Source of the DNA: Bryobacterales bacterium
GTDB lineage: Bacteria; Acidobacteriota; Terriglobia; Bryobacterales; UBA6623
Direction of reading: 5' to 3'
Length of the DNA stretch: 64,000 nt
Assembly (NCBI GenBank): GCA_022826925.1
Contig: JAJDTX010000011.1
Location: 1 to 64,000 of the forward strand
The notes under the pieces are model-generated. The model did no database searches. It was not told where the DNA came from and was given only the letters and a program-made list of their open reading frames with translations. The position numbers and the translations under genes were made by a program. Below, in pieces: positions 43,466-60,887 of the stretch. Each line of letters starts with the position of its first letter. The first letter of the stretch is position 1.

Positions 43466-45370
43466 TCACGAAACGGTGGCAGGCCCCGGTTCGGGCGTCG
43501 GTAATGCTTCCGCGACCAATTCGGCGACGTCAACAACACGAACGTCCTCCGCGCCGGCCTGTCCTGCGGCGTCCTTGAGCATGATTGGGCAATAAGGGCA
43601 TGCGACTGCGATCGTGTCTGCACCAGTCTGCTGCGCCTCCTCAAAGCGCTTGTAGTTGACCCGGCCGCCCGGCAATTCGACACTGTCGTCGGCAATGTAG
43701 AGTTGAGCGCCGCCCGCCCCACAGCAGAACGTTTGGGCGGCATGGTGGCGCATCTCAACGACCTCCGCACCGGCGGCTTGCAGAACCTCGCGAGGCTCAT
43801 CCACCACTCCCCGTCCACGCGCCAGGTAGCAGGGATCATGAAATGTGACCTTGCTAGCGGATGGCTCCATTGGCAAGGATTCGACCAATTTCGCGAGCAG
43901 CTCGGAGTGATGCACCACCTCGATGCCAAGTTGCGCGAAATCCTCCGACTGGCGGTAGTCCACGTCAAACATGCGAGCGCAGTGCGGGTCGCATGTCACG
44001 AGCTTGCGCACGCCCTTGGAGCGGAACTCAGAGACCAATCGCTCGGAGAGTTCCATGTACAGGTACTCGTTGCCGGCGCGGCGGGCCGGCTCGCCACAGC
44101 AAGTCTCGGAAGCGAGCACTCCCCACGAGACTCCTGCGCTGTCGAGGATCCGCTGCATCGCCTTGACGACCTGCTGGCCGTGGGGGTCGTAACTGCAGCC
44201 GCAGCCCAGCCACAACAGCCACTCGGTTTCCGGTTCGTGGATCGGCAGGCCAGCCGACTCCAAGAGCTTGCGCCGCACCTGTTGCGAGGCGCCCCATGCG
44301 TTGTGCGGGGAGCGCTCCATCGTTGTGAACATGTCCGACAGCTTGTCGTTGGAGGTTCTCCCCTCGCTGACCAATCCGCGTCGCAAGTCTAGGATCTTCA
44401 AGCCGACGTGCTCGATGCCCACCGGGCAGGCTTGCTCGCAGGCACCGCATGTGAAGCACTGGTAGAGATCCTCCTCGCTGATCCAGGCCTCGCCGCTGGC
44501 CACCGCCTCAGCGTCCGCGGCAATGACTTCCCCGCCCGCTAGCAAGCCGCGCTGAAGTTGGAGCACGATCTGCTTCGGATCGAGGGAGCCGCCGATCAAG
44601 TTGGCCGGGCAGCTGTCCGTGCAGCGCCCGCACTCCACGCAAGAATTGACGTCTAGGACATCTTTCTGAGAAAGGTCCGCGAACGCCAGCATGCCGAAGT
44701 CATCGTCATCCTCGTCTCGCAGCGCGCGCATGGGACTGGTGACCTCGCCTCGGAAGAAGATCGCCACCGGCCCCAGCACGAGATGCAAGTGCTTGGAATT
44801 CGGTATCAGCCACAGCATGCCGAGCAGAGCCGCCGTGTGCAGCCACCAGTTCGCCTTCCAAGCGTCCGAGCCGGCCTCCAGCAAGCGCCAATCCGCCAGA
44901 TACGTCACCATCAGCCCGACGATCAACAAGGCGACCAAGGCCGAAGTCAGCGACAGGTGCTCTCCCAGTGCCTTCGGACGCAGGACGAAGCGCCGGAAGC
45001 TCAGACCCACGATGCCCGCCAGCACTGCCACGGCCCACGCGCCGGCGAAGGCTGAATACCACGAATGCCCCGAAGCCGGCGGCTCGAATCCGCCCAAGCC
45101 AGTGGCAAAGTGCTCGATGCTGACCCACGCGAAGGCAAAGAACCCCCACATCACCAACGCGTGCAGCACGCCAGCCGCGGGCCGCTCGCGAATCACCCGA
45201 GTTTGCAGCATGACCTCCGCGAACACGGTCCAAAGCCGCGCCGGCAGGCGGTCGAATGCCAGGTTGCGCTCCTTGGCGCGAAGCATCGGAGCCAAGCGCC
45301 TGGCAACTGTCCGGCAGAAGTAGCCGAGGCTCGCCAAGGTCGCAAAGACTAGGACACCGATTTCGAGCAC
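43466..45370 (-). CDS. EMO-like membrane Fe-S oxidoreductase (NarI-like plus HdrD-like CCG domains)
   Basis: 634 residues, GTG start. Residues about 1-230 hold five or six membrane helices with haem-binding-type histidines, like NarI. Two 4Fe-4S clusters follow (SCVECGRCTDSCP and QCFTCGACEQACP). Two cysteine-rich CCG domains come last (LGCGCSYD...ETCCGEPARRAGN and FHDPCYLARGRG...FCCGAGGAQ). The layout matches FadF/HdrD-related electron-transfer-flavoprotein:(mena)quinone oxidoreductases that take electrons from acyl-CoA dehydrogenases to the quinone pool. No etfAB genes are in the window. TATGAT lies eight bases before the GTG. The divergent sulfatase starts only 44 bases away. Confidence 0.85.
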   Translation of the reverse strand: MLEIGVLVFATLASLGYFCRTVARRLAPMLRAKERNLAFDRLPARLWTVFAEVMLQTRVIRERPAAGVLHALVMWGFFAFAWVSIEHFATGLGGFEPPASGHSWYSAFAGAWAVAVLAGIVGLSFRRFVLRPKALGEHLSLTSALVALLIVGLMVTYLADWRLLEAGSDAWKANWWLHTAALLGMLWLIPNSKHLHLVLGPVAIFFRGEVTSPMRALRDEDDDDFGMLAFADLSQKDVLDVNSCVECGRCTDSCPANLIGGSLDPKQIVLQLQRGLLAGGEVIAADAEAVASGEAWISEEDLYQCFTCGACEQACPVGIEHVGLKILDLRRGLVSEGRTSNDKLSDMFTTMERSPHNAWGASQQVRRKLLESAGLPIHEPETEWLLWLGCGCSYDPHGQQVVKAMQRILDSAGVSWGVLASETCCGEPARRAGNEYLYMELSERLVSEFRSKGVRKLVTCDPHCARMFDVDYRQSEDFAQLGIEVVHHSELLAKLVESLPMEPSASKVTFHDPCYLARGRGVVDEPREVLQAAGAEVVEMRHHAAQTFCCGAGGAQLYIADDSVELPGGRVNYKRFEEAQQTGADTIAVACPYCPIMLKDAAGQAGAEDVRVVDVAELVAEALPTPEPGPATVS

Positions 45371-45378
45371 AGCATAGG

Positions 45379-45384
45379 ATCATA
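45379..45384 (-). promoter_or_regulatory. TANNNT element TATGAT before the EMO-like gene
   Basis: TATGAT (five of six bases as TATAAT) is followed by eight bases and the GTG at 45370. It sits within a 44-base divergent interval that also holds TATACT for the opposite gene, so both transcripts must have very short leaders. Confidence 0.5.
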
Positions 45385-45399
45385 ACGCGCCAGCGGGCG

Positions 45400-45405
45400 T
45401 ATACT
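45400..45405 (+). promoter_or_regulatory. TANNNT element TATACT before the sulfatase gene
   Basis: TATACT is followed by nine bases (GGCAGCGCC) and the ATG at 45415. It is back to back with the TATGAT element of the EMO-like gene. Confidence 0.5.
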
Positions 45406-45414
45406 GGCAGCGCC

Positions 45415-46911
45415 ATGCGGACTACTCGACGCACCTTCCTAGCCGGAGCCAGCGGGCTGGGCGCGCTGGGCGCATGCGGAACGCTGCCCGGCCCGCGCAA
45501 CGCAACCCCTCCCAACATCCTGTTCTTTTTCCCGGACCAGCACCGCTCTGACTGGGTGCAGTGGAACAGCGCCGTGCCGGTCCCGACGCCCAATCTCGAG
45601 AGCCTGTTCCGGCGCGGACTGTCGTTCCCGAACGCCGTGGTCGATTCCCCGGTCTGCGGGCCGTCGCGCGCCTGCCTGGCTTCGGGCAGTGTATACGAGC
45701 GGTGCGGAGTTACGAACAATAGCGACAACTTCCCAGTGACCCGCAGGACCTACTACAAGGCATTGCGTGACAGCGGATATCACGTGATGGGCTGCGGCAA
45801 GTTGGACCTTCACAAGGGGGATTATTCGTGGGGTCTTGACGGCAGGGGCAGCATGGAAGCGTGGGGCTTCTCGGACATGATCGACAACGGCGGCAAGGGC
45901 GGCGCGGCAACCGCCTATCGCAGAGAACCGGTCGGTCCGAAGGACCCGTACTATGCGTACCTCGACTCCCTCGAACCGCCACTGGGCGGAACATGGGCGA
46001 ATGAGCTGGAACGATTGGGACGGGTCAAGTGGAACCAGATCGACAAGAGCAAGCCCGGCCCGGAGTTGGACGATCTGCTGAGCCGCGAGACGTGGTGGGG
46101 CGAAACAGATCCGGTCGCAGTCCCCGACGAGGCCTACTGCGACAACTGGATCGCCCGGAACGGCTTGGAGCTCTTGGACCGAGCACCCGACGGCAAGCCG
46201 TGGCACCTCGTGCTGAACTTCGTGGGCCCACATCCGCCCATGGACATCACGCACAGCATGGCGAACAGCTATCGCGGACCGGACCGCGTGGTCGATGGCT
46301 TCGAGCAGCCGCACAACTACCCGGGGCCGATTCCCCCGGAGCAGCACGTCCGCATCCGGCAGAACTACGCAGCCATGATCGAGAACATCGACCGCTGGCT
46401 GGGGGTGTTCGTCGACACCCTCAAGCAGCGCGGAGACTACGAGAACACCCTGATCGTCTACTCCAGCGACCACGGAGAGATGCTTGGGGACCACGGACTG
46501 TGGGGCAAGGGCTTCCCACACCAGCCATCCGCGGGGGTGCCACTGTGCATTGCGGGGCCGGGCGTGCGCCAAGGGAGCGAGAGCGATGCGATGGCGAGCC
46601 TGATCGACGTCACCGCCACATTCATGGACTACGCCGAGGCGGGGACGCTGGAATACCAAGACGGCCAATCGTTGCGGCCACTGCTGGGGAGCGCAACAGA
46701 ACACCACCGGGACTACTCGCGGTCGGCGCTGACCATTAGAGACGGACCGTGGCGATTCGTGCAAGACCAACGCTACAAGCTGGTCGAGGGATTCGGCCAA
46801 GAGCCCCGGCAATTGTTCGACCGCGAAGCGGACCCGTTCGAAGACGAAAACATCGCCGAATCCAACCCCGCGGAGGTCGAGCGCCTCTCCGAGCTATTCG
46901 TGGAAGCCTGA
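45415..46911 (+). CDS. Tat-exported sulfatase (lipoprotein)
   Basis: 498 residues. TRRTFLAGASGLGALGAC is a Tat signal ending in a lipobox. The formylglycine site is CGPSR in SPVCGPSRACLASGS. Other sulfatase parts are NILFFFPDQHR near the start, the CGKLDL stretch where many family members have GKWHLG, and YSSDHGEMLGDHGLWGKG. These cover the metal-binding and active-site residues of S1 sulfatases. It removes sulfate esters, probably from a polysaccharide, outside the cytoplasm. A formylglycine-generating enzyme is needed but is not in the window. The exact S1 subfamily cannot be given by eye. Confidence 0.9.
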   Translation: MRTTRRTFLAGASGLGALGACGTLPGPRNATPPNILFFFPDQHRSDWVQWNSAVPVPTPNLESLFRRGLSFPNAVVDSPVCGPSRACLASGSVYERCGVTNNSDNFPVTRRTYYKALRDSGYHVMGCGKLDLHKGDYSWGLDGRGSMEAWGFSDMIDNGGKGGAATAYRREPVGPKDPYYAYLDSLEPPLGGTWANELERLGRVKWNQIDKSKPGPELDDLLSRETWWGETDPVAVPDEAYCDNWIARNGLELLDRAPDGKPWHLVLNFVGPHPPMDITHSMANSYRGPDRVVDGFEQPHNYPGPIPPEQHVRIRQNYAAMIENIDRWLGVFVDTLKQRGDYENTLIVYSSDHGEMLGDHGLWGKGFPHQPSAGVPLCIAGPGVRQGSESDAMASLIDVTATFMDYAEAGTLEYQDGQSLRPLLGSATEHHRDYSRSALTIRDGPWRFVQDQRYKLVEGFGQEPRQLFDREADPFEDENIAESNPAEVERLSELFVEA

Positions 46912-48656: not shown

Positions 48657-50180
48657 TCAGAGCCCAGTCCGCTCCCGCTTGGAGCGGTCGCGCCCGTAGA
48701 TTTCGACACTGATGGGTAACTCGTCCGGCGTTTCGTCCAGAGGAAAGATCGGGCGAGGACACTTCGCATGCCCAAGGGTGCGCAAGTTGGCGCTGGTCGC
48801 GCCGGGCGCATCGACGCTGACCAGGAACGAGCACCACTGCTGATACATATGCGGCTCGCAGTGCGGTGACTTCACGACGACGAGGTCGAACGCCCGAGGG
48901 TCCTGTCCGTGCGCCAGGAACAGAGCCCGGTCGTAGAGGTTGACAGCCCGGCTCGTGACGACGAAGACGCGGCGACCGCTCTCCAGCACGGCCGTCGGGC
49001 CGGCGTGGCATTCGCTGTGGAACGATTCGCTCCTGAATCTGCCGTCCGACAAGAGCTTGACGCGCCCCTCGACCGGAAGGGGACGGAACCGGAGGCGATC
49101 GAGAGAGCCTCCGAGCGTGGTCCGCACCGTCCCTCCGACCCCTGCCGCAAACGCCTGCTCCACAGCAGGTGCATCCACCATCGGTGCAAGCAGACGCCCG
49201 GGAAAGCCCGCCTGCTCGGCCGCGTGGATGACCGAATTGCCATCCCCCGAAGCGCCCGAACTGGTTGCGTCGGCAGCGTCCATCAGTACGGCGGTACCCG
49301 CAGTTTCGGCCGCCAGGGCCACGGCCTCGTCCAAGCCGGTCAATTTCGCCTGCATGCCGTGGCGGCGCGCCCAAATCTGGCGCGCAAGCCTGATGGCTTG
49401 GCCAACGGCAAGCTGCGGGTCACCGTTCGCCACCGCGAAGCTGTTCGACCGCAGGTCGGGCACATCGGTGAACGGATTGCCGATGATCACGCCCGCCGAG
49501 AGCCCGGCAGGCAGCCTCTCGAACTCCTCGGCCTCTCGGATGACCTGGCCGAAGGTCCCGGTCTTGGTAATCAACTCGTCGCCGCGCGCGAGCATCGGAA
49601 TTCGCACGCGCGCCGTTATGGGACGGGCCGTTCCCGAAAGGACCGCCAAGAGCAGCTTCGCGGCCCGCGCCCCGGTCTGTCTGAAGTCCACGTGCGGGTA
49701 GGTGTGGTAGGCGACGATTGCATCGCTGCACTCCAGCATGCGATTCGTCAAGATTGCGTGGAGATCCAGCGAGACGACGATCGGAACGTCGTCTCCGAGA
49801 ATCTTCCGGCTCTCGCTGAGCAGAAAGCCCTCGGGGTCGTCTTCGCCCTCGGCGGCCATCGCGCCGTGCAACGAGAAGTAGGCCCCGTCCACTTCGTCGG
49901 CGTCGGCCAAGCTCTCCAGAAACTCGCTGGCGATGCGCGAAAAGTCGGGCGCAGCGAGCAATCCCCCCGACGCGATTGCCTTGGCGCTGTAGGTTGGGGC
50001 CAACACACACTGCTCGCGGTCACCGAATACCTCGAGCGCGCCGCCCACTTCTTCCTGCGCCGAGACGTGGTAGTCCAGCAGTTCCGCGCCGCGCCGAATC
50101 ACGAAATCCGCGTAGGTGCTCGCAGCGGCAGCGAACGTCGCGACCTCTTGCTTGCATTCGGCGATCACCACTCGCGGCAC
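48657..50180 (-). CDS. M81-family metallopeptidase (MlrC/microcystinase C-like)
   Basis: 507 residues, GTG start preceded at six bases by CATAAT. The family is zinc-dependent and named for MlrC, which finishes microcystin degradation; most members act on other peptides or amides. Motifs are SLDLHAILTNRM (Asp-x-His), VAYHTYPHVDFRQTG (His), GVIIGNPFTDVPD, the DAADATSSGASGDG stretch, and KSPHCEPHMYQ. These match the DUF1485/MlrC N- and C-terminal domains at normal length. It has no signal peptide. The transporter gene downstream could import or export its substrate, which is inference from position only. Confidence 0.88.
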   Translation of the reverse strand: MPRVVIAECKQEVATFAAAASTYADFVIRRGAELLDYHVSAQEEVGGALEVFGDREQCVLAPTYSAKAIASGGLLAAPDFSRIASEFLESLADADEVDGAYFSLHGAMAAEGEDDPEGFLLSESRKILGDDVPIVVSLDLHAILTNRMLECSDAIVAYHTYPHVDFRQTGARAAKLLLAVLSGTARPITARVRIPMLARGDELITKTGTFGQVIREAEEFERLPAGLSAGVIIGNPFTDVPDLRSNSFAVANGDPQLAVGQAIRLARQIWARRHGMQAKLTGLDEAVALAAETAGTAVLMDAADATSSGASGDGNSVIHAAEQAGFPGRLLAPMVDAPAVEQAFAAGVGGTVRTTLGGSLDRLRFRPLPVEGRVKLLSDGRFRSESFHSECHAGPTAVLESGRRVFVVTSRAVNLYDRALFLAHGQDPRAFDLVVVKSPHCEPHMYQQWCSFLVSVDAPGATSANLRTLGHAKCPRPIFPLDETPDELPISVEIYGRDRSKRERTGL

Positions 50181-50458: not shown

Positions 50459-50959
50459 ATGAAACAAAGCGTGGACTCTGAGGGTAGCGCGCAAGATCGA
50501 ATCGAGCCACGCCGGCGGTGGCTGGGAGCGGCTGTGCTCGGCAGTCTCGCCGCAACCTTCGGCACGCTTACCGGGTTCGCCGTAGCATTCCTGCTGCCGG
50601 CGAGGCGCAGAACCCGGACGCAGCGCGTGTTCCTAGGATTCGCCTCTGCATTCGCCCCGGGGCTCAGCCGCGTCTTCGAATTGCCGTCAGGCGACCATCT
50701 CGTCGTCACCTGCGGCCACAGCGAGGAGACGCCGGGCGGACTGGCATTTCGAGGGTACTCGGACCGCTGCCCGCATCTCGGCTGCCGGGTACATTACGAC
50801 GACGGCGCAGATCAGTACATCTGCCCGTGCCACGCGGGCGTGTTCAGTGCAGATGGCGAGGGGGTTTCCGGCCCTCCCGCCCAAGCCGGCCAGCGGCTGC
50901 AAGCCTATCACTTGGAAGTCGACGGAAACTCGCTGTATGCGGTCGTGAATACGGGATGA
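50459..50959 (+). CDS. Rieske iron-sulfur protein of a cytochrome bc-type complex
   Basis: 166 residues. A twin-arginine-like start (RRRWLGAAVLGSLAATFG) forms an uncleaved membrane anchor. The 2Fe-2S site is C104-P-H106 and C122-P-C124-H125, with Cys109 and Cys124 placed for the disulfide seen in bc1 and b6f Rieske proteins. This marks it as a quinol-oxidising rather than a dioxygenase-type Rieske. Its stop overlaps the cytochrome b start by four bases (ATGA). With the following cytochrome b and octahaem cytochrome it forms a three-gene respiratory operon. About 280 bases upstream are free of recognisable genes. Confidence 0.93.
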   Translation: MKQSVDSEGSAQDRIEPRRRWLGAAVLGSLAATFGTLTGFAVAFLLPARRRTRTQRVFLGFASAFAPGLSRVFELPSGDHLVVTCGHSEETPGGLAFRGYSDRCPHLGCRVHYDDGADQYICPCHAGVFSADGEGVSGPPAQAGQRLQAYHLEVDGNSLYAVVNTG

Positions 50960-52014
50960 GGCATTTGCTGGGCACTCCCGCGCAGTGGCTGCGTTCACGG
51001 TTCCCGGTGGACCAGGAAGCCCTCACGGCGATCGGGAGCGAGCCCATTCCCGGACACCTCAGGCGCTGGTGGTGGTGCATCGGCGGAACCCCCGCGTACC
51101 TGTTCCTGGTTCAGATCGCGAGCGGCATCCTGCTGACCTTCTACTACGTTCCCAGCCCGGAATTCGCCTACGACAGCGTTGCGGCGATCAGCAGCGAGGT
51201 TCGGTTCGGAAGCTACCTGCGCAGCATCCACAAATGGTCTTCGCACCTGATGATCATCGCGATGCTGCTCCACATGCTGCGGGTGTTCTTCACAGGAGCG
51301 TACAGGCCCCCTCGCGAACTGAACTGGATGGTCGGTTGCGGCTTGCTGCTGCTGACTCTCGGCGCCGGCTTCACCGGGTACTCCCTGGTGTGGGAGCAGC
51401 TCTCCTACTGGGGCGCCACCGTGGCCGCGAACATCCTCTCTGCAGTTCCGATCTTGGGGGATCAGCTGGCGGCATTCTTGCGCGGCGGCGATACCGTCGG
51501 CCAAAACATGCTCACGCGCCTCTTCGTGCTCCACATCGGGGCGATCCCAACGCTGATGATCGGCTGCCTCGCGATCCATGTCTACTTGGTCCGCGCCCAC
51601 GGCGTCTCGGAGCTGGGCTCGCCCAACACCTCCGATTCCGAGCCTTTTCCCTTCTTTCCCAACCACTTCCTCACGGAAGTCGCGTTGGCGCTGTTCTTGA
51701 TGTTCTTCCTGACATGCCTGGCGCTGATCTTCCCGGCGGATCTCGGCGAAAGAGCCAATGCGTTGGAGACACCGGAGCATATCAAGCCCGAGTGGTACTT
51801 CTTCTGGGCGTTTCGCTGGCTCAAGCTGATGCCGGACCAAGTGGCAGTAGTCACGCAGGGGCTGTTCCTGCTGCTGATCGTGCTATGGCCCGTGATCGAC
51901 GGCCGGATCCGCAAGCGCCATCCGGAGAGCGAGATCAGCATGGCGGTCGGCGGGGCGGCGGTAGTGCTGCTGCTGGCGCTGACGGTATGGGAAGCCTTGT
52001 ATCTGATGACGTAG
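50956..52014 (+). CDS. cytochrome b, fused b6/subunit-IV type
   Basis: 352 residues. The first half is b6-like (SIHKWSSHLMIIAMLLHMLR and RPPRELNW). Haem-ligand histidines are His92/His106 and His193/His208; the 15-residue step in the second pair is the b6f-type spacing. The second half matches subunit IV with PEWY at 278-281, the quinol-oxidation motif. The cysteine that binds haem c(n) in b6 appears to be Leu here (PAYLFLVQ). The start codon lies within the Rieske stop. No cytochrome c1 or f gene follows; the next gene is an octahaem cytochrome 16 bases later, which probably takes the electrons. Confidence 0.93.
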   Translation: MRHLLGTPAQWLRSRFPVDQEALTAIGSEPIPGHLRRWWWCIGGTPAYLFLVQIASGILLTFYYVPSPEFAYDSVAAISSEVRFGSYLRSIHKWSSHLMIIAMLLHMLRVFFTGAYRPPRELNWMVGCGLLLLTLGAGFTGYSLVWEQLSYWGATVAANILSAVPILGDQLAAFLRGGDTVGQNMLTRLFVLHIGAIPTLMIGCLAIHVYLVRAHGVSELGSPNTSDSEPFPFFPNHFLTEVALALFLMFFLTCLALIFPADLGERANALETPEHIKPEWYFFWAFRWLKLMPDQVAVVTQGLFLLLIVLWPVIDGRIRKRHPESEISMAVGGAAVVLLLALTVWEALYLMT

Positions 52015-52030
52015 GAGGATTGATACCACC

Positions 52031-53506
52031 GTGACCTTGGAACGAAAGCAGACGCTGATCATCGGTCTCGCCGCGCTATTCATGATCTCGCTCTTGATCG
52101 TGGCTTGGGTGGAAGGGGGCCGCAGCCGGATTGTCCGGGCGCCCGACGCCGTGGTAACCAGCGAAAACGCCGACTGCGTCGCTTGCCATCGCGTCAAGTC
52201 CCCCGGCATCGTCGGCCAGTGGGAGATCAGCGAGCACGCCAAATCGGGTATCGGCTGCTTGCAATGTCACCAAGCCCAGCCGGGCGACATCGATGCCTAC
52301 GAGCACGAGGGATCGCTGGTTTCGACAATCGTGACGCCGCCCGATTGCGCCGAGTGCCACGCTCAGGAGACAGCCGAATTCGACGCCAGCCACCACTCCC
52401 GCGGCGGCGAGATCCTAGGCAGCCTGGACAACGTCCTAGCCGAGGTGGTCGAGGGGTTCGTACGCTTTGACGACGCCGGCAACAAGATTGATACTTCGGC
52501 CGCGGCGGTGAGCGGCTGCCTGCAGTGCCACGGCTCGGAGGTGAAGGTCTTGGCGGACGGCAAGCTGGACCCAGCAACATGGCCGAACACAGGCATCGGG
52601 CGCATCAATCCGGACGGCTCGCGCGGCTCGTGCACGGCTTGCCACCTGCGCCACGACTTTTCGCGGGCGCAAGCCCGGGCACCGGAGAACTGCGGACGCT
52701 GCCACCTTGGCCCGGACCACCCGCAGCTCGAGGTCTACCAAGCCTCCAAGCACGGAATCGCGTTCGAGGCGAACCGAGACCGCTTCGAGCCGATGATGGA
52801 GGAAAAGGAGTGGATTCCCGGCCACCACTTCGAGCAAGGCCCGACCTGCACGAGCTGCCACATGAGCGCGACGCGGGATCTGCCCCTGACGCACGATGTC
52901 GGAGAGCGGATTTCTTGGACACTGCGACCTCCGGTATCGGAGAAGATCGACGCCGCCGCGATCCAACAAGGCGAGCAGGTCAAGAGTTGGGAGGATCGCA
53001 GGCGCGACATGCGCAACGTCTGCGAAAGCTGCCACGGCCCGGAATGGGTCGGCAACTGGTACAAGCAGTACGACGACCTAGTGGAACTCTACAACGAAAA
53101 GTTCGGCCGGCCGTCGACCGAGCTCTTCCGGATGGCTCGCTCAAGCGGGCTTCTCACCAGCGTCGAATTCGACGAAGAGCTGGAGTTCACCTACTTCTTC
53201 CTGTGGCACCACGAGGGGCGTCGGGCCAGGCACGGAGCGGCGATGATGGCCCCTGACTACACGCAGTGGCACGGCATGTACGAAGTGGCTCACCGCTTCT
53301 ACATGGAGCTCGTGCCCCAGTTGCGCGAACTGATCGAGCACAATCGGACAGGCCCGCGAGCCGCAGCGGCGAGGCGACTCGAAGCCAAGCTGGACTCGAT
53401 CCTGGAATCGGAGATGCATCGCTGGTTCTTGGGCCAGACAAGCGATGCCGAGAAAGCGGCGCGAGAGGCAGCCAGGGAAGCGTTTAGCCGAAGATACTCC
53501 CGCTGA
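52031..53506 (+). CDS. membrane-anchored octahaem cytochrome c, HAO-like
   Basis: 491 residues with AGGAGG in front of the start region. One N-terminal helix (LIIGLAALFMISLLIVAW) anchors it facing the periplasm. Eight CxxCH sites begin at residues 49, 76, 106, 163, 201, 221, 273 and 331, followed by a helical C-terminus (LYNEKFGRP, LWHHEGRRARHG, PDYTQWHGMYEVAHRFY). Number, spacing and this tail match the hydroxylamine-oxidoreductase (HAO) family. In oxidising HAOs a tyrosine in this tail region crosslinks to haem 4; Tyr410 is the candidate here. The protein may oxidise or reduce a nitrogen compound, or only pass electrons from the bc-type complex. Which of these applies is not visible. Confidence 0.88.
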   Translation: MTLERKQTLIIGLAALFMISLLIVAWVEGGRSRIVRAPDAVVTSENADCVACHRVKSPGIVGQWEISEHAKSGIGCLQCHQAQPGDIDAYEHEGSLVSTIVTPPDCAECHAQETAEFDASHHSRGGEILGSLDNVLAEVVEGFVRFDDAGNKIDTSAAAVSGCLQCHGSEVKVLADGKLDPATWPNTGIGRINPDGSRGSCTACHLRHDFSRAQARAPENCGRCHLGPDHPQLEVYQASKHGIAFEANRDRFEPMMEEKEWIPGHHFEQGPTCTSCHMSATRDLPLTHDVGERISWTLRPPVSEKIDAAAIQQGEQVKSWEDRRRDMRNVCESCHGPEWVGNWYKQYDDLVELYNEKFGRPSTELFRMARSSGLLTSVEFDEELEFTYFFLWHHEGRRARHGAAMMAPDYTQWHGMYEVAHRFYMELVPQLRELIEHNRTGPRAAAARRLEAKLDSILESEMHRWFLGQTSDAEKAAREAAREAFSRRYSR

Positions 53507-53824
53507 TCAGTCAGCTCCGCAGAAGCGACTTGCTCGCGTGGGGCTCCGTCCGCGCGACGGCAAACAGCCGCCGCCCGGCCGGCGAGCCCCGTCAACACAG
53601 AGCCAGATTGGATCTCAGCCTGCAGCCGCCAAGCTGCTTTCCGGTCCTTTGCATGCGCCGCGCTACAGCCGCTCGCGACGAAGGCCGACTGCGGCCGAAG
53701 TCGATATACTCCTTGGATCGGCCAAGATGCTGTCAACCGGTCATCGGAATTCCGCTCGGAACTTGCTTGCGGGATCCGATCTTGCCGATAGCATGCGATT
53801 TTGCACTTTCGTCTGGGAGAACCC
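53507..53824. other. gene-free interval after the respiratory operon
   Basis: About 318 bases. GGGGCTC (53540-53546) and GAGCCCC (53584-53590) form a seven-base inverted repeat around an inner CGTC/GACG stem, starting 34 bases past the octahaem stop; this may end the operon transcript. TATACT at 53705-53710 could be a -10 for the mannonate dehydratase gene, but no matching -35 is seen. No coding sequence is convincing. Confidence 0.4.
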
Positions 53825-54841
53825 ATGATCGACCTCGACCAGCTTCCGATGCGCGTCGGCCTCGGCCAGTTCCAGGAAATCACGCCCGAACGCCTGCAGT
53901 TCATTAAGCAGTGCGGCTGCGACGACTTTCAGCTCAACACTCCCACCCTGCCAGGACGAGAGCGCTGGGAGTATGAGGATCTCGCCCGCTTGGTGGCCCA
54001 AGCGAAAGACGCACGGCTGCGCCTGATCGCCATCGAGAACGTGCCTCGAGAGTTCTACGACCGCATCATGCTTGGCCAGCCGGGTCGCGAGGCGCAGTTC
54101 GAGAACATGGCCTACACGATCCGGAACGTCGCCCGAGCCGGCATTCCAATCCTCGGCTATGCCTTCATGCCGGCGGGCGTGTGGCGAACCGCCCGCACCA
54201 CGCCGGTCCGCGGCGGAGCCGAGGCGACGTCGTTCAAGTTCGAGATCGCGAAGGCAGTCAGGCCGGGTGATGGCCAGAGCCACTCGATCTGGCTGGGGTC
54301 GCCTGCCGAGCGTGAATATCCCGAAGAGGAGATCTGGGAAAACTACCGCTGGTTCATGGAGCGCATCCTGCCGGTCTGCGAAGAGATCGGCCTGCGGCTG
54401 GCGCTGCATCCGGACGACCCGCCGGTGCCGGCGCTCGGAGGGGTTGGCAGAATCTTCAGGAACTTCGAGAACTTCCGGCGCGCCATGGAGGAGTTTGACA
54501 GCCCCATGCACGGACTGGACTTCTGCCACGGGTGCTGGTCCGAGATGCGAGCGGGCGAGGGAGTGCTGGACGCGATCCGCTACTTCGGCGAGCGAGGGAA
54601 AATCTTCTACGTCCACTTCCGAGACGTGCAGGGTCCGGTCGAGGACTTCACCGAGTGCTTCTTGGGCGACGGCAACTGCGATCCGGTCGAAACGATGCGC
54701 GCACTGAAGCAGGTCGGCTTTCGCGGGTTCATCCTGCCGGACCATGTCCCGCGGATGGTAGGCGATGATGATTGGTGCCACCGCGGCCGGGCTTGGACGG
54801 TGGGCTACATTCAGGCCCTGATTGCATCCGTGAGGGCTTGA
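53825..54841 (+). CDS. uxuA: mannonate dehydratase
   Basis: 338 residues; the ATG at 53825 has GGGAGA six bases upstream. It dehydrates D-mannonate to 2-keto-3-deoxygluconate in glucuronate breakdown. UxuA-family features are MRVGLGQFQEITPERLQFIK, the AIENVPREFYDRI stretch, ILGYAFMPAGVWRT, LALHPDDPP (metal site), GLDFCHGCWSEM and the closing PDHVPRM. It is at the short end of the family. No UxuB or KdgK lies nearby. The sulfatases that follow suggest a pathway for sulfated uronate polymers, which is inference from position. Confidence 0.9.
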   Translation: MIDLDQLPMRVGLGQFQEITPERLQFIKQCGCDDFQLNTPTLPGRERWEYEDLARLVAQAKDARLRLIAIENVPREFYDRIMLGQPGREAQFENMAYTIRNVARAGIPILGYAFMPAGVWRTARTTPVRGGAEATSFKFEIAKAVRPGDGQSHSIWLGSPAEREYPEEEIWENYRWFMERILPVCEEIGLRLALHPDDPPVPALGGVGRIFRNFENFRRAMEEFDSPMHGLDFCHGCWSEMRAGEGVLDAIRYFGERGKIFYVHFRDVQGPVEDFTECFLGDGNCDPVETMRALKQVGFRGFILPDHVPRMVGDDDWCHRGRAWTVGYIQALIASVRA

Positions 54842-54924
54842 TCCGCGCAGGAGTCACGCTGCCATCAGTTTGTATTGGCACGAGTCCGGTTCGTTTGAGA
54901 CACTGGCCGAGGTCTGCTGATCCC

Positions 54925-56430
54925 ATGAAACTGCTGAGATTCGCGCTGCCAATCCTTTGGCTTGGCCCCGCGCTTTGCCAAAGCGACAAGCCTAACCTCG
55001 TGATCGTGTTCGCCGACGACCTCGGTTACGGCGACGCTCAGGTCTACAACCCGGACTCCAAGGTCCCCACGCCGCACATCGATGCCCTTGCGGAGCGCGG
55101 CATGCGCTTCACGGACGCTCACACGGCCTCGTCGGTGTGCACGCCGTCCCGCTACGGCCTGCTCACGGGCCGGTATCCCTGGCGATCGCGCCTGCCCACC
55201 GGAATTGTCAACAGCTGGGGCGGAGCGGTCATCGACAAGGATCGCCTGACTCTCGGCAAGGCCCTCCAAGCGCTCGGCTACAAGACCGCGTGCATCGGCA
55301 AGTGGCACCTCGGGTGGGATTGGCCGCGCATCGAAGGCGGCTATCTGTCCGACGAACTGGAGGGCGTGAATGTGGGCCGCGACTACGAACCGTACGGACG
55401 GCGAGTAGATTTCTCGAGACCGGTACTGGAAGGCCCGATCACCCGCGGCTTCGACTACTACTTCGGCGACGACGTGCCGAATTTCCCGCCGTATGCATTC
55501 ATCGAGAACGATCGCGTCATCGGCGAACCCACGGATCGCATGCCTGCCCAGAAGGGCCAGCGCAGCGGCCCGATGCTGCCGGGCTGGGATCTCTGGGCCG
55601 CACAGCCGACCATTACAGCGCGGGCGCTGCAATGGCTCGAAGCGCGGGCGGCGGACCCGAAGACGCCGTTCTTCCTCTACATGCCGCTGCTCGGGCCGCA
55701 CACTCCTATCGTGCCCAACGCCGCGAATCACGGCTCCAGCGAGGCGGGGCCGTACGGCGACTGGGTGCATCAGATGGATTCCATACTGGGCAAGGTCGTC
55801 GAGGTTCTCGAGCGCACGGGTGCGATCCGGAACACCATCGTGCTGTTCACATCTGACAACGGATCTCCGGCTCGCAGCGGAATCGGAGCCTTTGGCGCCA
55901 CCTCGACCGTGACCGAGCTGTACTCCCATGTCCCGAACGCGCCGTGGCGAGGCCTCAAGGCCGACGCTTGGGAAGCCGGCCACCGCGTTCCGTTCGTGAT
56001 GCGCTGGGACGGCCAGATCCAAGCCGGCAGCGTCTCTGATCGCACTGTCTGCCTGACCGATGTCTTCGCCACCATCAGCGAGGTCGCGGGCTTTGAGATG
56101 CCCCAGGACTCTGGCGAGGACAGCTTCAGCCTGGCACCGCTGCTGTTCGGCAAAGGAGCGTACCTGCGTAAACAGACGGTGCACCACAGCCTGCGCGGCG
56201 TGTTCGCGATCCGCAAGGGGAACTGGAAGCTAATCCTGGGGGATGGCAGTGGAGGCTTTTCCGCACCAGCCGGAAGGGTGCTACAGCCAGACGCCGACAA
56301 TGGGATGCAACTGTACCTGTTGAGCGAGGATCCCAACGAGCGACGAAACCTCGCAACTGCCCGTCCTCACGTCAAGGCGGACCTGCTCTCCGAACTGGCC
56401 CGCATCCAAGAAGCGGGGCGCTCCAGATAG
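54925..56430 (+). CDS. exported sulfatase (arylsulfatase-like)
   Basis: 501 residues. The signal peptide is LLRFALPILWLGPALC. PNLVIVFADDLGYGDAQVYN gives the metal-binding aspartates, CTPSR in SSVCTPSRYGLLTGRYPWR is the formylglycine site, and GKWHLGWDWP and FTSDNGSPA complete the active site. This is the most canonical of the three sulfatases in the window. It follows uxuA by 83 bases on the same strand, so they may be co-transcribed. The cysteine at the end of the signal (ALCQSD) could also be a lipobox, but the preceding residues fit weakly. Confidence 0.93.
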   Translation: MKLLRFALPILWLGPALCQSDKPNLVIVFADDLGYGDAQVYNPDSKVPTPHIDALAERGMRFTDAHTASSVCTPSRYGLLTGRYPWRSRLPTGIVNSWGGAVIDKDRLTLGKALQALGYKTACIGKWHLGWDWPRIEGGYLSDELEGVNVGRDYEPYGRRVDFSRPVLEGPITRGFDYYFGDDVPNFPPYAFIENDRVIGEPTDRMPAQKGQRSGPMLPGWDLWAAQPTITARALQWLEARAADPKTPFFLYMPLLGPHTPIVPNAANHGSSEAGPYGDWVHQMDSILGKVVEVLERTGAIRNTIVLFTSDNGSPARSGIGAFGATSTVTELYSHVPNAPWRGLKADAWEAGHRVPFVMRWDGQIQAGSVSDRTVCLTDVFATISEVAGFEMPQDSGEDSFSLAPLLFGKGAYLRKQTVHHSLRGVFAIRKGNWKLILGDGSGGFSAPAGRVLQPDADNGMQLYLLSEDPNERRNLATARPHVKADLLSELARIQEAGRSR

Positions 56431-57972: not shown

Positions 57973-59520
57973 CTAGTAGTCAGGCCCGGCATCGGGCGGC
58001 TTCGGAAACTGTCGGATCGCAGAGTACCGGACGTACTCGTCCCAGATCTCTCCCCTGCCTGTGGCGCGCGCGTCCCCGGTCTTGACCAAGTATGCGGCAA
58101 GCTCGTCGCGCAAGGCTTCGAGCAAGCCCGCGTGCTCGGGCGCTTCGGCGAGGTTGTCCAAGCAGCCGGGATCGGCGGCAAGGTCGAACAGCTCCTCTGC
58201 GGGACGCTTTCCCACCGCCAGCTCCAGATAGTGCCCTACGCCTTCCTCGTCCCTGCCCTCGATCAGACGTGTCAGCGTCGGCGAGGCATCTATGTCGTGA
58301 TACGCCTGGTGCATCTCTTCCAAGCCGCGCCCGTCGGCACGGTACTTCTGCGGAGCGCCGGCCGGCCAACGCAGCGGCTTGAAGTTGCGGATATACAAGT
58401 GTTCCGGGGTCCGCATCGATCGCTGCGGATAAGTCAGATTGTTCCAGCGTGACGACGAGTGGCGCTCGCGCCCGGAGTACGCGCGCGTGCGACTCGAGTC
58501 CACCATGCCATCCTCCTGGGACTCCAAGATGTCGCGAATGCTCCGCCCTGCGAGAGCGCTCGCTCCCCCCGGGTGGGCCACGCTGGCAACATCAAGGATC
58601 GTCGCCGTCAGGTCCACGAACTGCACCAGGTCGTCGATGGTCCGGCCGCCGCGGCCCGGTCCGGCCCATCGCACGGCCAGCGGCATGTGGATGCCGTAGT
58701 CGTACAGGTTCGCCTTGGCTCGCGGGAACGCCATCCCATTGTCGGCGGTAAAGATCACCAGCGTGTTGTCGAGTTCTCCGTGTTCGGCGAGGAAGTCCAA
58801 GATCCGGCCCACGTGCGAGTCGAACCATTCGATCTCGACAGCATAGTCCAGCAGGTCCTCGCGAATTTCGGGCGTGTCCGGCAGGAATGGCGGCACCTCC
58901 GCATCTTCCAGGCGTTTGCCCGCAGCCTTCCACGAGCCCTGCTCGAAGCGACGGTGCGCCTCGCTGCCGCCGACCCAAAAACTGAATGGCTGGCCAGGTT
59001 CCCTCGACTCGAAGAACGCCTCGAAATTGCCAGCATAGTCCCAGTCCCTGATCCCTTCATAAGGCGGGTCCAGCGTCCGATCCGTGAACGGGGGGCCTGC
59101 CGGATTGCGCGTCCGCCCCGACTTCTCCCAGCGGCCTGGGCCCCACGGCTTGCCGGTGTAACCGATTGCGTAGCCAGCCTCTTCCAGCAGGTCCTGATAC
59201 GAAACGTAGGTCGTTGGAAACGAGCTTGCGTGCGTGCCCGCCTGCTCGATCATCCAGATGTGCCGGCCGGTCAGGAACGCTGCGCGGGTCGGGCTGCAGC
59301 CCGGCGCCGGAGCGTAGGCGTTGCGGAACAGCGCGCCTTCCGCCGCCACGCGATCGAAGGCCGGCGTGTTGACCATCTCGGAGCCCGCCGCGGAGACGTG
59401 CGGATAGGAAACGTCGTCCCAGATCGCGAATAGGATGTTCGGCCGGCTGGACGAAGACTGGCTGGCACAGCCAGCAGCCGTCAAGCAGGCAACCACCGGC
59501 ACCAGAGCGCGTAGAGTCAT
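57973..59520 (-). CDS. sulfatase lipoprotein, divergent type
   Basis: 515 residues. LVPVVACLTAAGCASQ is a lipoprotein signal. RPNILFAIWDDVSYPHVSAA begins the sulfatase fold, CSPTR in APGCSPTRAAFLTGR is the formylglycine site, and IFTADNGMAFPRAK holds later metal ligands. The usual GKWHLG is replaced by TGKPWGPG, which points to a subfamily different from the sulfatase at 54925. TAAACT lies seven bases before the ATG. It is probably outer-membrane- or periplasm-anchored and acts on a sulfated sugar polymer. Confidence 0.9.
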   Translation of the reverse strand: MTLRALVPVVACLTAAGCASQSSSSRPNILFAIWDDVSYPHVSAAGSEMVNTPAFDRVAAEGALFRNAYAPAPGCSPTRAAFLTGRHIWMIEQAGTHASSFPTTYVSYQDLLEEAGYAIGYTGKPWGPGRWEKSGRTRNPAGPPFTDRTLDPPYEGIRDWDYAGNFEAFFESREPGQPFSFWVGGSEAHRRFEQGSWKAAGKRLEDAEVPPFLPDTPEIREDLLDYAVEIEWFDSHVGRILDFLAEHGELDNTLVIFTADNGMAFPRAKANLYDYGIHMPLAVRWAGPGRGGRTIDDLVQFVDLTATILDVASVAHPGGASALAGRSIRDILESQEDGMVDSSRTRAYSGRERHSSSRWNNLTYPQRSMRTPEHLYIRNFKPLRWPAGAPQKYRADGRGLEEMHQAYHDIDASPTLTRLIEGRDEEGVGHYLELAVGKRPAEELFDLAADPGCLDNLAEAPEHAGLLEALRDELAAYLVKTGDARATGRGEIWDEYVRYSAIRQFPKPPDAGPDY

Positions 59521-59527
59521 CGAAAGC

Positions 59528-59533
59528 AGTTTA
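59528..59533 (-). promoter_or_regulatory. TANNNT element TAAACT before the divergent sulfatase gene
   Basis: TAAACT is followed by seven bases (GCTTTCG) and the ATG at 59520. The same hexamer precedes the M50 gene at 56487. Confidence 0.45.
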
Positions 59534-59583
59534 GCCGAACGCTCATGCTGGAGTAGCACCTCCTCAGCGGCCCCAAGAAACCC

Positions 59584-59589
59584 TATAGT
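59584..59589 (+). promoter_or_regulatory. TANNNT element TATAGT before the TPR gene
   Basis: TATAGT is followed by eight bases (GGAATTCA) and the GTG start at 59598. No ribosome site fits comfortably in the spacer. Confidence 0.45.
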
Positions 59590-59597
59590 GGAATTCA

Positions 59598-60887
59598 GTG
59601 GCATCGATTCGTCTGGGACTGGCCGCTGTGACACTGACTCTGGGTGCGCTCGCTGGCAGTGCGCAGGACGACGGGCCTCCGGCGGAAGAGCTGGTCCGGC
59701 GAGGGTTGATGGCGCTGCAAGCGCGCGATCTGCCGACCGCCCAAGAGTACCTCGAACGGGCCGTTGAGAGAGATTCGGGCGAGCCGCGCGGCTGGATCGG
59801 GCTCGCGCAGACCTATTCCATGCTCAACCTGCACACGCAGGCTTCGAGGCATGCCGCGGAGGCGGCCCGCCTCGGGGGCGAGGATCCTCTCATCCAGCAC
59901 GCGCTGTCCATGTTTCACACCAACTATGGCAACTGGGCCGAAGCGGCGGCCTGGGAAGAGAAGTTCGCGCGCCATTCGGAAGAGAACCTCGATGCCTACC
60001 TGCGGACAGTTTCGCTCTATCTGCAGGCGGAAATGCCGAAGCGCGCGGCCGAGGTCGCCGAGGCCGCGCTCCAACACGGGGAGTCAGCCTCCCTGCACAA
60101 CGCCCTCGGCAAGGCCTACACGATGTCGGGCGACCTCGAGAAAGGGCTGGATCACCTGCAGCTGGCCGTCGCTCAGGAGCCCTACGAGGAATCGCTGCAC
60201 TACGATCTAGGCTATTTTCATCTGCGGCAGCAAGACTTCACGTCCGCCAGAGCGGCGTTTGAGGCGGGTCGCAAGTACTTCGACAAGAGCCCGGCCCTGG
60301 AAATCGGCCTCGGCATCGCCGCTTACGGCCGGCGCAGCTTCAAGGACTCCGTGGACCACTTCCTGCGTGCCGCCTCGCTCGCGCCGGGGCTCGAGCAGCC
60401 GCACGCCTTCCTCGGGCGCTTGCTACAGCACGCCTCGGATCGCATGGACGAAGTCGTCGAGCGGATGAAGGCGTTCCACAGCGACCACTCCAAGAACCAT
60501 TTCGGGCCGTTCTTGTACGGACAGGCCCTGCTGGCCAAGTTGGGAGCGAGCAAGGATGAGACGGCCATGGCCGAGATCGAGTCCCTGCTGCGCGAGTCAC
60601 TCGAGCGCAACGAGGAGTACTGGGAATCGCACTATGAGCTGGGCGTTCTGCTGGAGAAGAAGCGCGACTTCCCAGAGGCCGAGAAACATCTCAGGCGAGC
60701 AGTCACGCTCAACCCCGACTCGTCCAAGCCTCACTATCGGCTGGCCCGCGTATACCAGCGCTTGGGCAAGGCTAGAGAAGCCAAGCGCGAGCGCGAATTG
60801 CACAAGCAGATTGCCGAGCGGGAGCGGCAAGCGATGCAGGCAGGAGGCCTGCCGGAAGGATTCGCCGCTGGCGGCGTGACGCCCTAG
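59598..60887 (+). CDS. exported tetratricopeptide-repeat protein
   Basis: 429 residues, GTG start. A signal peptide (IRLGLAAVTLTLGALAGSA) precedes about nine TPR units. Examples are ALQARDLPTAQEYLERAVER, NALGKAYTMSGDLEKGLDHL, LGYFHLRQQDFTSARAAFEA and KRDFPEAEKHLRRAVTLNP. TPR arrays bind other proteins, so this is likely a periplasmic scaffold; no enzyme domain is visible. Its stop overlaps the ribB stop on the opposite strand in the shared tetramer CTAG. Confidence 0.88.
   Translation: MASIRLGLAAVTLTLGALAGSAQDDGPPAEELVRRGLMALQARDLPTAQEYLERAVERDSGEPRGWIGLAQTYSMLNLHTQASRHAAEAARLGGEDPLIQHALSMFHTNYGNWAEAAAWEEKFARHSEENLDAYLRTVSLYLQAEMPKRAAEVAEAALQHGESASLHNALGKAYTMSGDLEKGLDHLQLAVAQEPYEESLHYDLGYFHLRQQDFTSARAAFEAGRKYFDKSPALEIGLGIAAYGRRSFKDSVDHFLRAASLAPGLEQPHAFLGRLLQHASDRMDEVVERMKAFHSDHSKNHFGPFLYGQALLAKLGASKDETAMAEIESLLRESLERNEEYWESHYELGVLLEKKRDFPEAEKHLRRAVTLNPDSSKPHYRLARVYQRLGKAREAKRERELHKQIAERERQAMQAGGLPEGFAAGGVTP

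Follow-up and report, generated by a model that had tools for sequence, protein, structure and literature searches.

A Rieske/cytochrome b/octahaem cytochrome c gene trio in a Bryobacterales bacterium as a probable quinol:nitrogen-oxide oxidoreductase

The stretch of DNA analysed here (the window) comprises 64,000 nucleotides of contig JAJDTX010000011.1 from a Bryobacterales bacterium (Acidobacteriota). It contains three adjoining genes encoding a Rieske protein, a fused cytochrome b and an octahaem cytochrome c of the hydroxylamine oxidoreductase (HAO) superfamily. The trio is probably functional as a quinol:nitrogen-oxide oxidoreductase, the mechanism of which we infer. It is reasonably likely, judging from sequence, that the products form one membrane complex in which the Rieske/cytochrome b pair oxidises menaquinol and a built-in octahaem reduces nitrite, nitric oxide (NO) or hydroxylamine. 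Systems of this kind are already known as proposals, and the minimal, anchored, low-potential, cross-phylum form described below is a variant. The three open reading frames (ORFs) are:

50459..50959, forward strand: Rieske [2Fe-2S] protein, 166 amino acids, disulfide type
50956..52014, forward strand: fused cytochrome b6/subunit IV, 352 amino acids
52031..53506, forward strand: octahaem cytochrome c of the HAO superfamily, GTG start, 491 amino acids, eight CxxCH

The ATG of the cytochrome b ORF shares the bases ATGA with the Rieske TGA, and 16 bases separate cytochrome b from the octahaem ORF. The coordinates and tight packing reported by a first-pass annotation, made from the letters alone, are thus correct. 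Chance origin of the trio is excluded, because it is kept in 11 of 80 homologous loci (see below). Flanking ORFs and Pfam matches reveal no cytochrome c1 or f gene adjoining the trio, where the octahaem is the sole c-type protein, and neither nap genes nor an NAD(P) oxidoreductase gene beside it. The initial statement that the operon lacks c1 and f therefore holds: the flanks are an M81 metallopeptidase ORF (48657-50180, opposite strand) on the Rieske side and a UxuA-like TIM barrel ORF (53801-54841, forward strand) on the octahaem side.

The octahaem protein has the first Cys of its CxxCH sites at residues 49, 76, 106, 163, 201, 221, 273 and 331. It matches PF13447 (Multi-haem_cyto) with 81.6 bits for a cut-off of 21.9 and has the HAO superfamily fold. 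The eight sites and the PDYTQWHG segment, including Tyr410, are present as first described. Two positions were located by alignment:

52715..52720, forward strand: Asp229-His230, aligned with Asp267-His268 of Nitrosomonas HAO (1fgj)
53267..53269, forward strand: Trp413, aligned with the cross-link Tyr467 of Nitrosomonas HAO (1fgj)

The active-site Asp and His are retained in 240 and 241, respectively, of 241 aligned sequences. Tyr410 had been put forward as the possible cross-link tyrosine. This candidate is rejected: Trp413, three residues further on, occupies the Tyr467 column, in which Trp is invariant (241/241) and Tyr absent. The window octahaem thus lacks the cross-link Tyr of the P460-type enzymes (oxidative HAO, HOX, HDH). 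Because Trp413 sits at this column, the protein looks like a reductive HAO (HAOr, eHao type). While sharing superfamily and Asp/His pair with the Nitrosomonas enzyme, it differs from it also by a predicted N-terminal anchor. The closest solved structure, by both sequence and fold, is the octahaem of Ignicoccus hospitalis (4qo5), which likewise has no cross-link Tyr (Phe at that column) but carries Val in place of the active-site His; we know of no link of this protein to a Rieske/cytochrome b pair. To note, a His-His pair at octahaem residues 393-394 is found in 75 of 75 family rows and is missing from six HAO-type paralogues (loci L081-L086); it may mark a subfamily-specific site.

The cross-link column also bears on the direction of catalysis. 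The superfamily fold, and the naming of several octahaem homologues at source as hydroxylamine oxidoreductase or dehydrogenase, would suit an enzyme oxidising hydroxylamine or hydrazine and passing electrons to the quinone pool by way of the Rieske/cytochrome b pair. However, oxidative forms are reported with the cross-link Tyr (PMC12758564), in place of which the family has Trp throughout, and electrons would have to run uphill to pass backwards through a Rieske/cytochrome b complex. Such an oxidative role is very unlikely.

The octahaem is predicted to be attached to the membrane, as the first-pass annotation had proposed:

52037..52132, forward strand: predicted N-terminal membrane-anchor helix, octahaem residues 3-34, ending with AWVEGG

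In the AlphaFold2 model, residues 3-34 form a helix (mean predicted local distance difference test score, pLDDT, 84.5; predicted template modelling score, pTM, 0.75). Partner-linked octahaems have an N-terminal hydrophobic segment followed by an (A/G)W(V/I)EGG-like motif, without the AxA of signal peptidase sites, whereas most octahaems without Rieske/cytochrome b resemble secreted proteins. In a first sample (70 of 80 loci with a long ORF, 10 being dropped), the motif, defined after viewing the set, occurs at 12/12 loci with a partner and 0/58 without, as opposed to 0/12 and 37/58 for AxA. A second sample from a phylum search (29 loci, L111-L139, of which L111 is L003 again, leaving 28) has the motif at 3/6 loci with cytochrome b and 0/22 without (Fisher p 0.0061). 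A segment with mean hydropathy >=2.5, a cut set afterwards, is found at 6/6 and 0/22, respectively. In bc1 and b6f complexes the c-type subunit is held to the complex by one helix. Since that subunit is tied in this way too, an anchored octahaem fits the place of c1/f.

The other two proteins are a disulfide-type Rieske protein and a fused cytochrome b with PEWY and four haem histidines, as described from the start and now confirmed by Pfam and by residues. The Rieske ORF matches PF00355 (31.8 bits for a cut-off of 20.3) with the cluster motifs CPHLGC and CPCHAGVF. The cytochrome b ORF is above cut-off for PF00033, PF13631 and PF00032, with His 92/106/193/208, 14 residues separating the second His pair, and PEWY at 278. 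It also has a b6-type cysteine, at what we take to be the haem cn site:

51076..51078, forward strand: Cys41 codon of cytochrome b, aligned with the Cys of b6-type YCLGG

This haem-cn-type Cys of b6f complexes is present in the window and at L001-L005, the position being Ala at L009-L011, L016, L036, L037, L127 and L128. In the Rieske protein, the usual CPCHGSxY box is altered, with Gly for its Ser and Phe for its Tyr. Ser and Tyr near the cluster raise its potential (PMC12954380), and Gly or Ala plus Phe replace them in 21 of 21 distinct trio Rieske proteins (the window, 11 trio proteins and 13 more, 4 of which had been counted already). The other Rieske protein of the host, beside a second cytochrome b (L095), retains CPCHGSGY. 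The host genome also has two MqnA/D-family (menaquinone-pathway) genes. Without Ser and Tyr, the complex is predicted to work at low potential, as suits menaquinol.

The neighbour survey called for at the outset was carried out on a GTDB genome scan, using the best 80 of at least 555 stretches encoding an octahaem relative. At 11 of the 80 loci (L001-L005, L009-L011, L016, L036 and L037), the three genes share the order and strand of the window trio, and at one further locus, L013, the contig starts within cytochrome b. Trio loci cover at least six phyla: Acidobacteriota, Spirochaetota, Nitrospinota, KSB1, Planctomycetota (Ca. Anammoxibacter) and Poribacteria. Octahaem distances across 11 loci, a set with the window but without L004 and L013, correlate with those of cytochrome b (r 0.91) and of Rieske (r 0.80; Mantel p 0.0001), as expected if the trio genes travel together; by itself this is no demonstration of contact. 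Among the 11 same-genus genomes listed, the octahaem is found at 97-100% identity in five (own included), a 36-39% identical relative in four and no relative in two. Cytochrome b and Rieske genes adjoin all five orthologues (window, L097-L100). More widely, 14 of 150 related genomes have an octahaem match at 1e-20, and 65 of 396 genomes of a phylum sample at 1e-100.

The proposed chain of events would begin with menaquinol oxidation by the Rieske/cytochrome b pair via a Q-cycle. Electrons would then pass from the Rieske protein directly to the predicted membrane-anchored octahaem, which would reduce nitrite, NO or hydroxylamine, most likely to ammonium. The octahaem would hence replace cytochrome c1/f and double as terminal reductase. 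We infer in this scheme the physical complex, the Rieske-to-octahaem electron path, Q-cycle proton translocation, the substrate and the product. Periplasmic nitrite ammonification is usually held to be fed by quinol dehydrogenases conserving no energy, and reduction fed by NapC or NrfH is electroneutral. In contrast to the latter, nitrogen-oxide reduction through the trio would conserve energy at the octahaem step. Quinol dehydrogenases feeding Nap and Tor are described as conserving no energy; periplasmic nitrate and trimethylamine N-oxide (TMAO) reduction in C. jejuni require QcrABC and are electrogenic, with an H+/2e- of 2 (PMC6195509). The chances are about even for the wider proposition of a self-contained three-subunit complex performing electrogenic ammonification in at least six phyla, with c1/f swapped for a reductase and the octahaem anchor marking this mode. 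If true, building the reductase into a Rieske/cytochrome b complex would turn nitrite ammonification into an energy-conserving process in many uncultured lineages, where the genes bear at best the names 'hydroxylamine oxidoreductase' or 'multiheme c-type cytochrome'. Simple sequence rules separating the trio mode from others would then be available in the anchor motif, the cross-link-site Trp and the Rieske box, and these argue against the hydroxylamine-oxidation reading of such genes. The trio's spread over at least six phyla makes the proposed energy-saving nitrite respiration easy to test.

Several results weigh against this scheme, in which both activity and complex are predictions from sequence. 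Neither a Rieske nor a cytochrome b match was found at 68 of the 80 loci, 7 of which have <1.1 kb upstream, and the octahaem thus does not need this partner. In a quick maximum-likelihood tree (83 rows, window included), the 13 Rieske/cytochrome b-linked octahaems form three lineages, none of them within the clade that unites 56 others. They are not one clade (approximately unbiased test, p 0.00012), and the label takes 4 changes; L007 and L008, within the acidobacterial lineage, have neither partner genes nor anchor motif. Three of the six further trio-type loci of the second sample lack the motif. Potential can be read from the Rieske sequence with little confidence, given that Kustd1480, which lacks the Tyr only, is still at +335 mV (PMC12954380). 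The tie between octahaem and Rieske/cytochrome b proposed in the first-pass annotation stands in a qualified form: not obligatory, it gains a conserved neighbourhood, a retained HAO Asp/His pair and an anchor that follows the partner genes.

The trio loci L005, L010 and L016 carry an additional c-type cytochrome gene upstream, and at these loci its product may be what actually accepts the electrons. At L005 and L010 it is a monohaem cytochrome c gene, as would be expected if the octahaem were an electron relay only, replacing c1/f and feeding a soluble cytochrome, a NirK donor or an aa3 chain without catalysis. The host does have one aa3-type oxidase and NirK, and in anammox complexes, too, multihaem cytochromes substitute for cytochrome f (PMC12954380). 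A pure relay is nonetheless unlikely, in view of the near-complete retention of the Asp/His pair, the occurrence of the octahaem family next to NapC/NirT or NrfD-type donors where Rieske/cytochrome b genes are missing, and the second Rieske/cytochrome b pair (L095) available in the host.

The host genome (5.97 Mb, 93% complete) probably belongs to Bryobacterales also on the strength of 97-98% identity to P0001 and L004. It has a single PF13447 gene, that of the window, two cytochrome b genes and one haem-copper oxidase, which is CtaD-like (aa3-type). By best hit, two of its three molybdopterin proteins resemble formate dehydrogenases and one Qrc, each scoring under the respective cut-off; none reaches the NapA or NarG cut-off and so none is an evident source of nitrite, a further point against the menaquinol:nitrogen-oxide reductase. 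No family match to NrfA or Hcp was obtained in this genome, within the limits of its 93% completeness. The first-pass annotation had described the organism as not known for nitrogen-oxide respiration; nitrogen-oxide genes are not absent from it, as shown by a NirK gene scoring 470 bits for a curated cut-off of 296.3 (G000:C3:10564-11541, L148). With CtaD as the only oxidase, no NO reductase of the haem-copper superfamily was found beside NirK in the 93% complete genome. Together with the missing NapA/NarG, NrfA and Hcp matches, this would agree with a complex that reduces another substrate (e.g. sulfite or tetrathionate), or that detoxifies NO or nitrite, without energy-conserving respiration. 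Yet the Amt and nap genes adjacent to relatives or in their vicinity point to nitrate, nitrite and ammonium, and a Q-cycle donor would be odd for pure detoxification; such functions are quite improbable. To note, locus L092 of the host encodes QrcA-, QrcB- and QrcC-like proteins, all under curated cut-offs.

The novelty assumed at first has to be reduced, since Caldithrix abyssi and the anammox bacterium Kuenenia offer precedents. In Caldithrix, genes for Rieske (Cabys_2558), cytochrome b (2557) and eHao (2556) adjoin within a nap cluster, and direct or NapM-mediated electron transfer was proposed (PMC5317091). The arrangement is like that of the window by description, not by sequence; it lies, however, among nap genes with NapM and NapGH, whereas the window trio stands alone in a host with an aa3-type oxidase gene and no molybdopterin protein at the NapA cut-off. 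The first-pass statement that anammox bacteria encode Rieske/cytochrome b complexes with HAO-like subunits is borne out by Kuste4569-4574, which combines a b6-like cytochrome b, a Rieske protein and an HAO-like octahaem, multihaem cytochromes replacing cytochrome f. Nitrite reduction is proposed and the subunits are said to comigrate (PMC12954380). In this complex, cytochrome b6 and subunit IV are split, and it includes an NAD(P) oxidoreductase and another multihaem cytochrome, unlike the window trio with its fused cytochrome b and HAO-like octahaem only. Its Rieske protein keeps Ser and Tyr, with a potential of +303 mV (PMC12954380), as against Gly/Phe here.

Three less close cases are described. 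The bc-like operon of Nitrospina gracilis comprises Rieske, b6-type cytochrome b and octahaem genes, but its cytochrome b is split, a second, unsplit one lying elsewhere; its octahaem is likened as an octahaem only, the excerpt not stating HAO-likeness (PMC3578206). Loci L009-L011 from Nitrospinaceae metagenome-assembled genomes, on the other hand, carry the fused-cytochrome-b trio as in the window. A Parcubacterium encodes a putative HAO and a PetAB-type complex (cytochrome b/Rieske) on one scaffold, a likeness by description; there, PetAB has a tetrahaem gene next to it and the nine-haem HAO a NapC/NrfH-type gene, and the authors speculate on hydroxylamine oxidation (PMC5220378). Octahaem HAO-like genes of Phycisphaerae have been interpreted as nitrite reductases (PMC11266412).

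Other members of the octahaem family have other candidate donors beside them. A tetrahaem gene follows the octahaem in Vibrio, Photobacterium, Shewanella and similar loci, the L020 product belonging to the Pfam NapC/NirT family and falling under narrower NCBIfam cut-offs (one tested). At L052 (Verrucomicrobiota) and L071 (Acidobacteriota), the octahaem comes after a 4Fe-4S protein and a membrane protein of the NrfD family. An NrfD-family protein is encoded at L046 as well, and those of L052 and L046 are above the DsrP cut-off. At L021 (Methylococcaceae), a nine-haem protein with a b561 domain is encoded downstream. An Amt ammonium transporter gene lies downstream at L059 (Thiomargarita) and two genes upstream at L025. 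At L003, NapA (1002.5 bits for a cut-off of 930.55) is encoded directly downstream of the trio, together with a NapB-like gene, and NapA is above cut-off in 2 of 6 trio genomes searched. These representatives are best explained by one putative reductase with exchangeable electron-donor modules.

Some minor observations concern the surroundings of the trio and its absence in related genomes. Three sulfatase-like ORFs, recognised by eye, lie around the region (45256-46911 and 54772-56430, forward strand; 57973-59634, reverse strand). Four same-genus genomes without the trio (L104, L106, L107, L108) encode a second octahaem, 36-39% identical, whose N-terminus carries a hydrophobic segment. At the thresholds applied, neither Pfam nor NCBIfam gives a match for the L104 copy, and at L104 and L106 a hydrophobic protein of 278 amino acids is encoded after this second octahaem.

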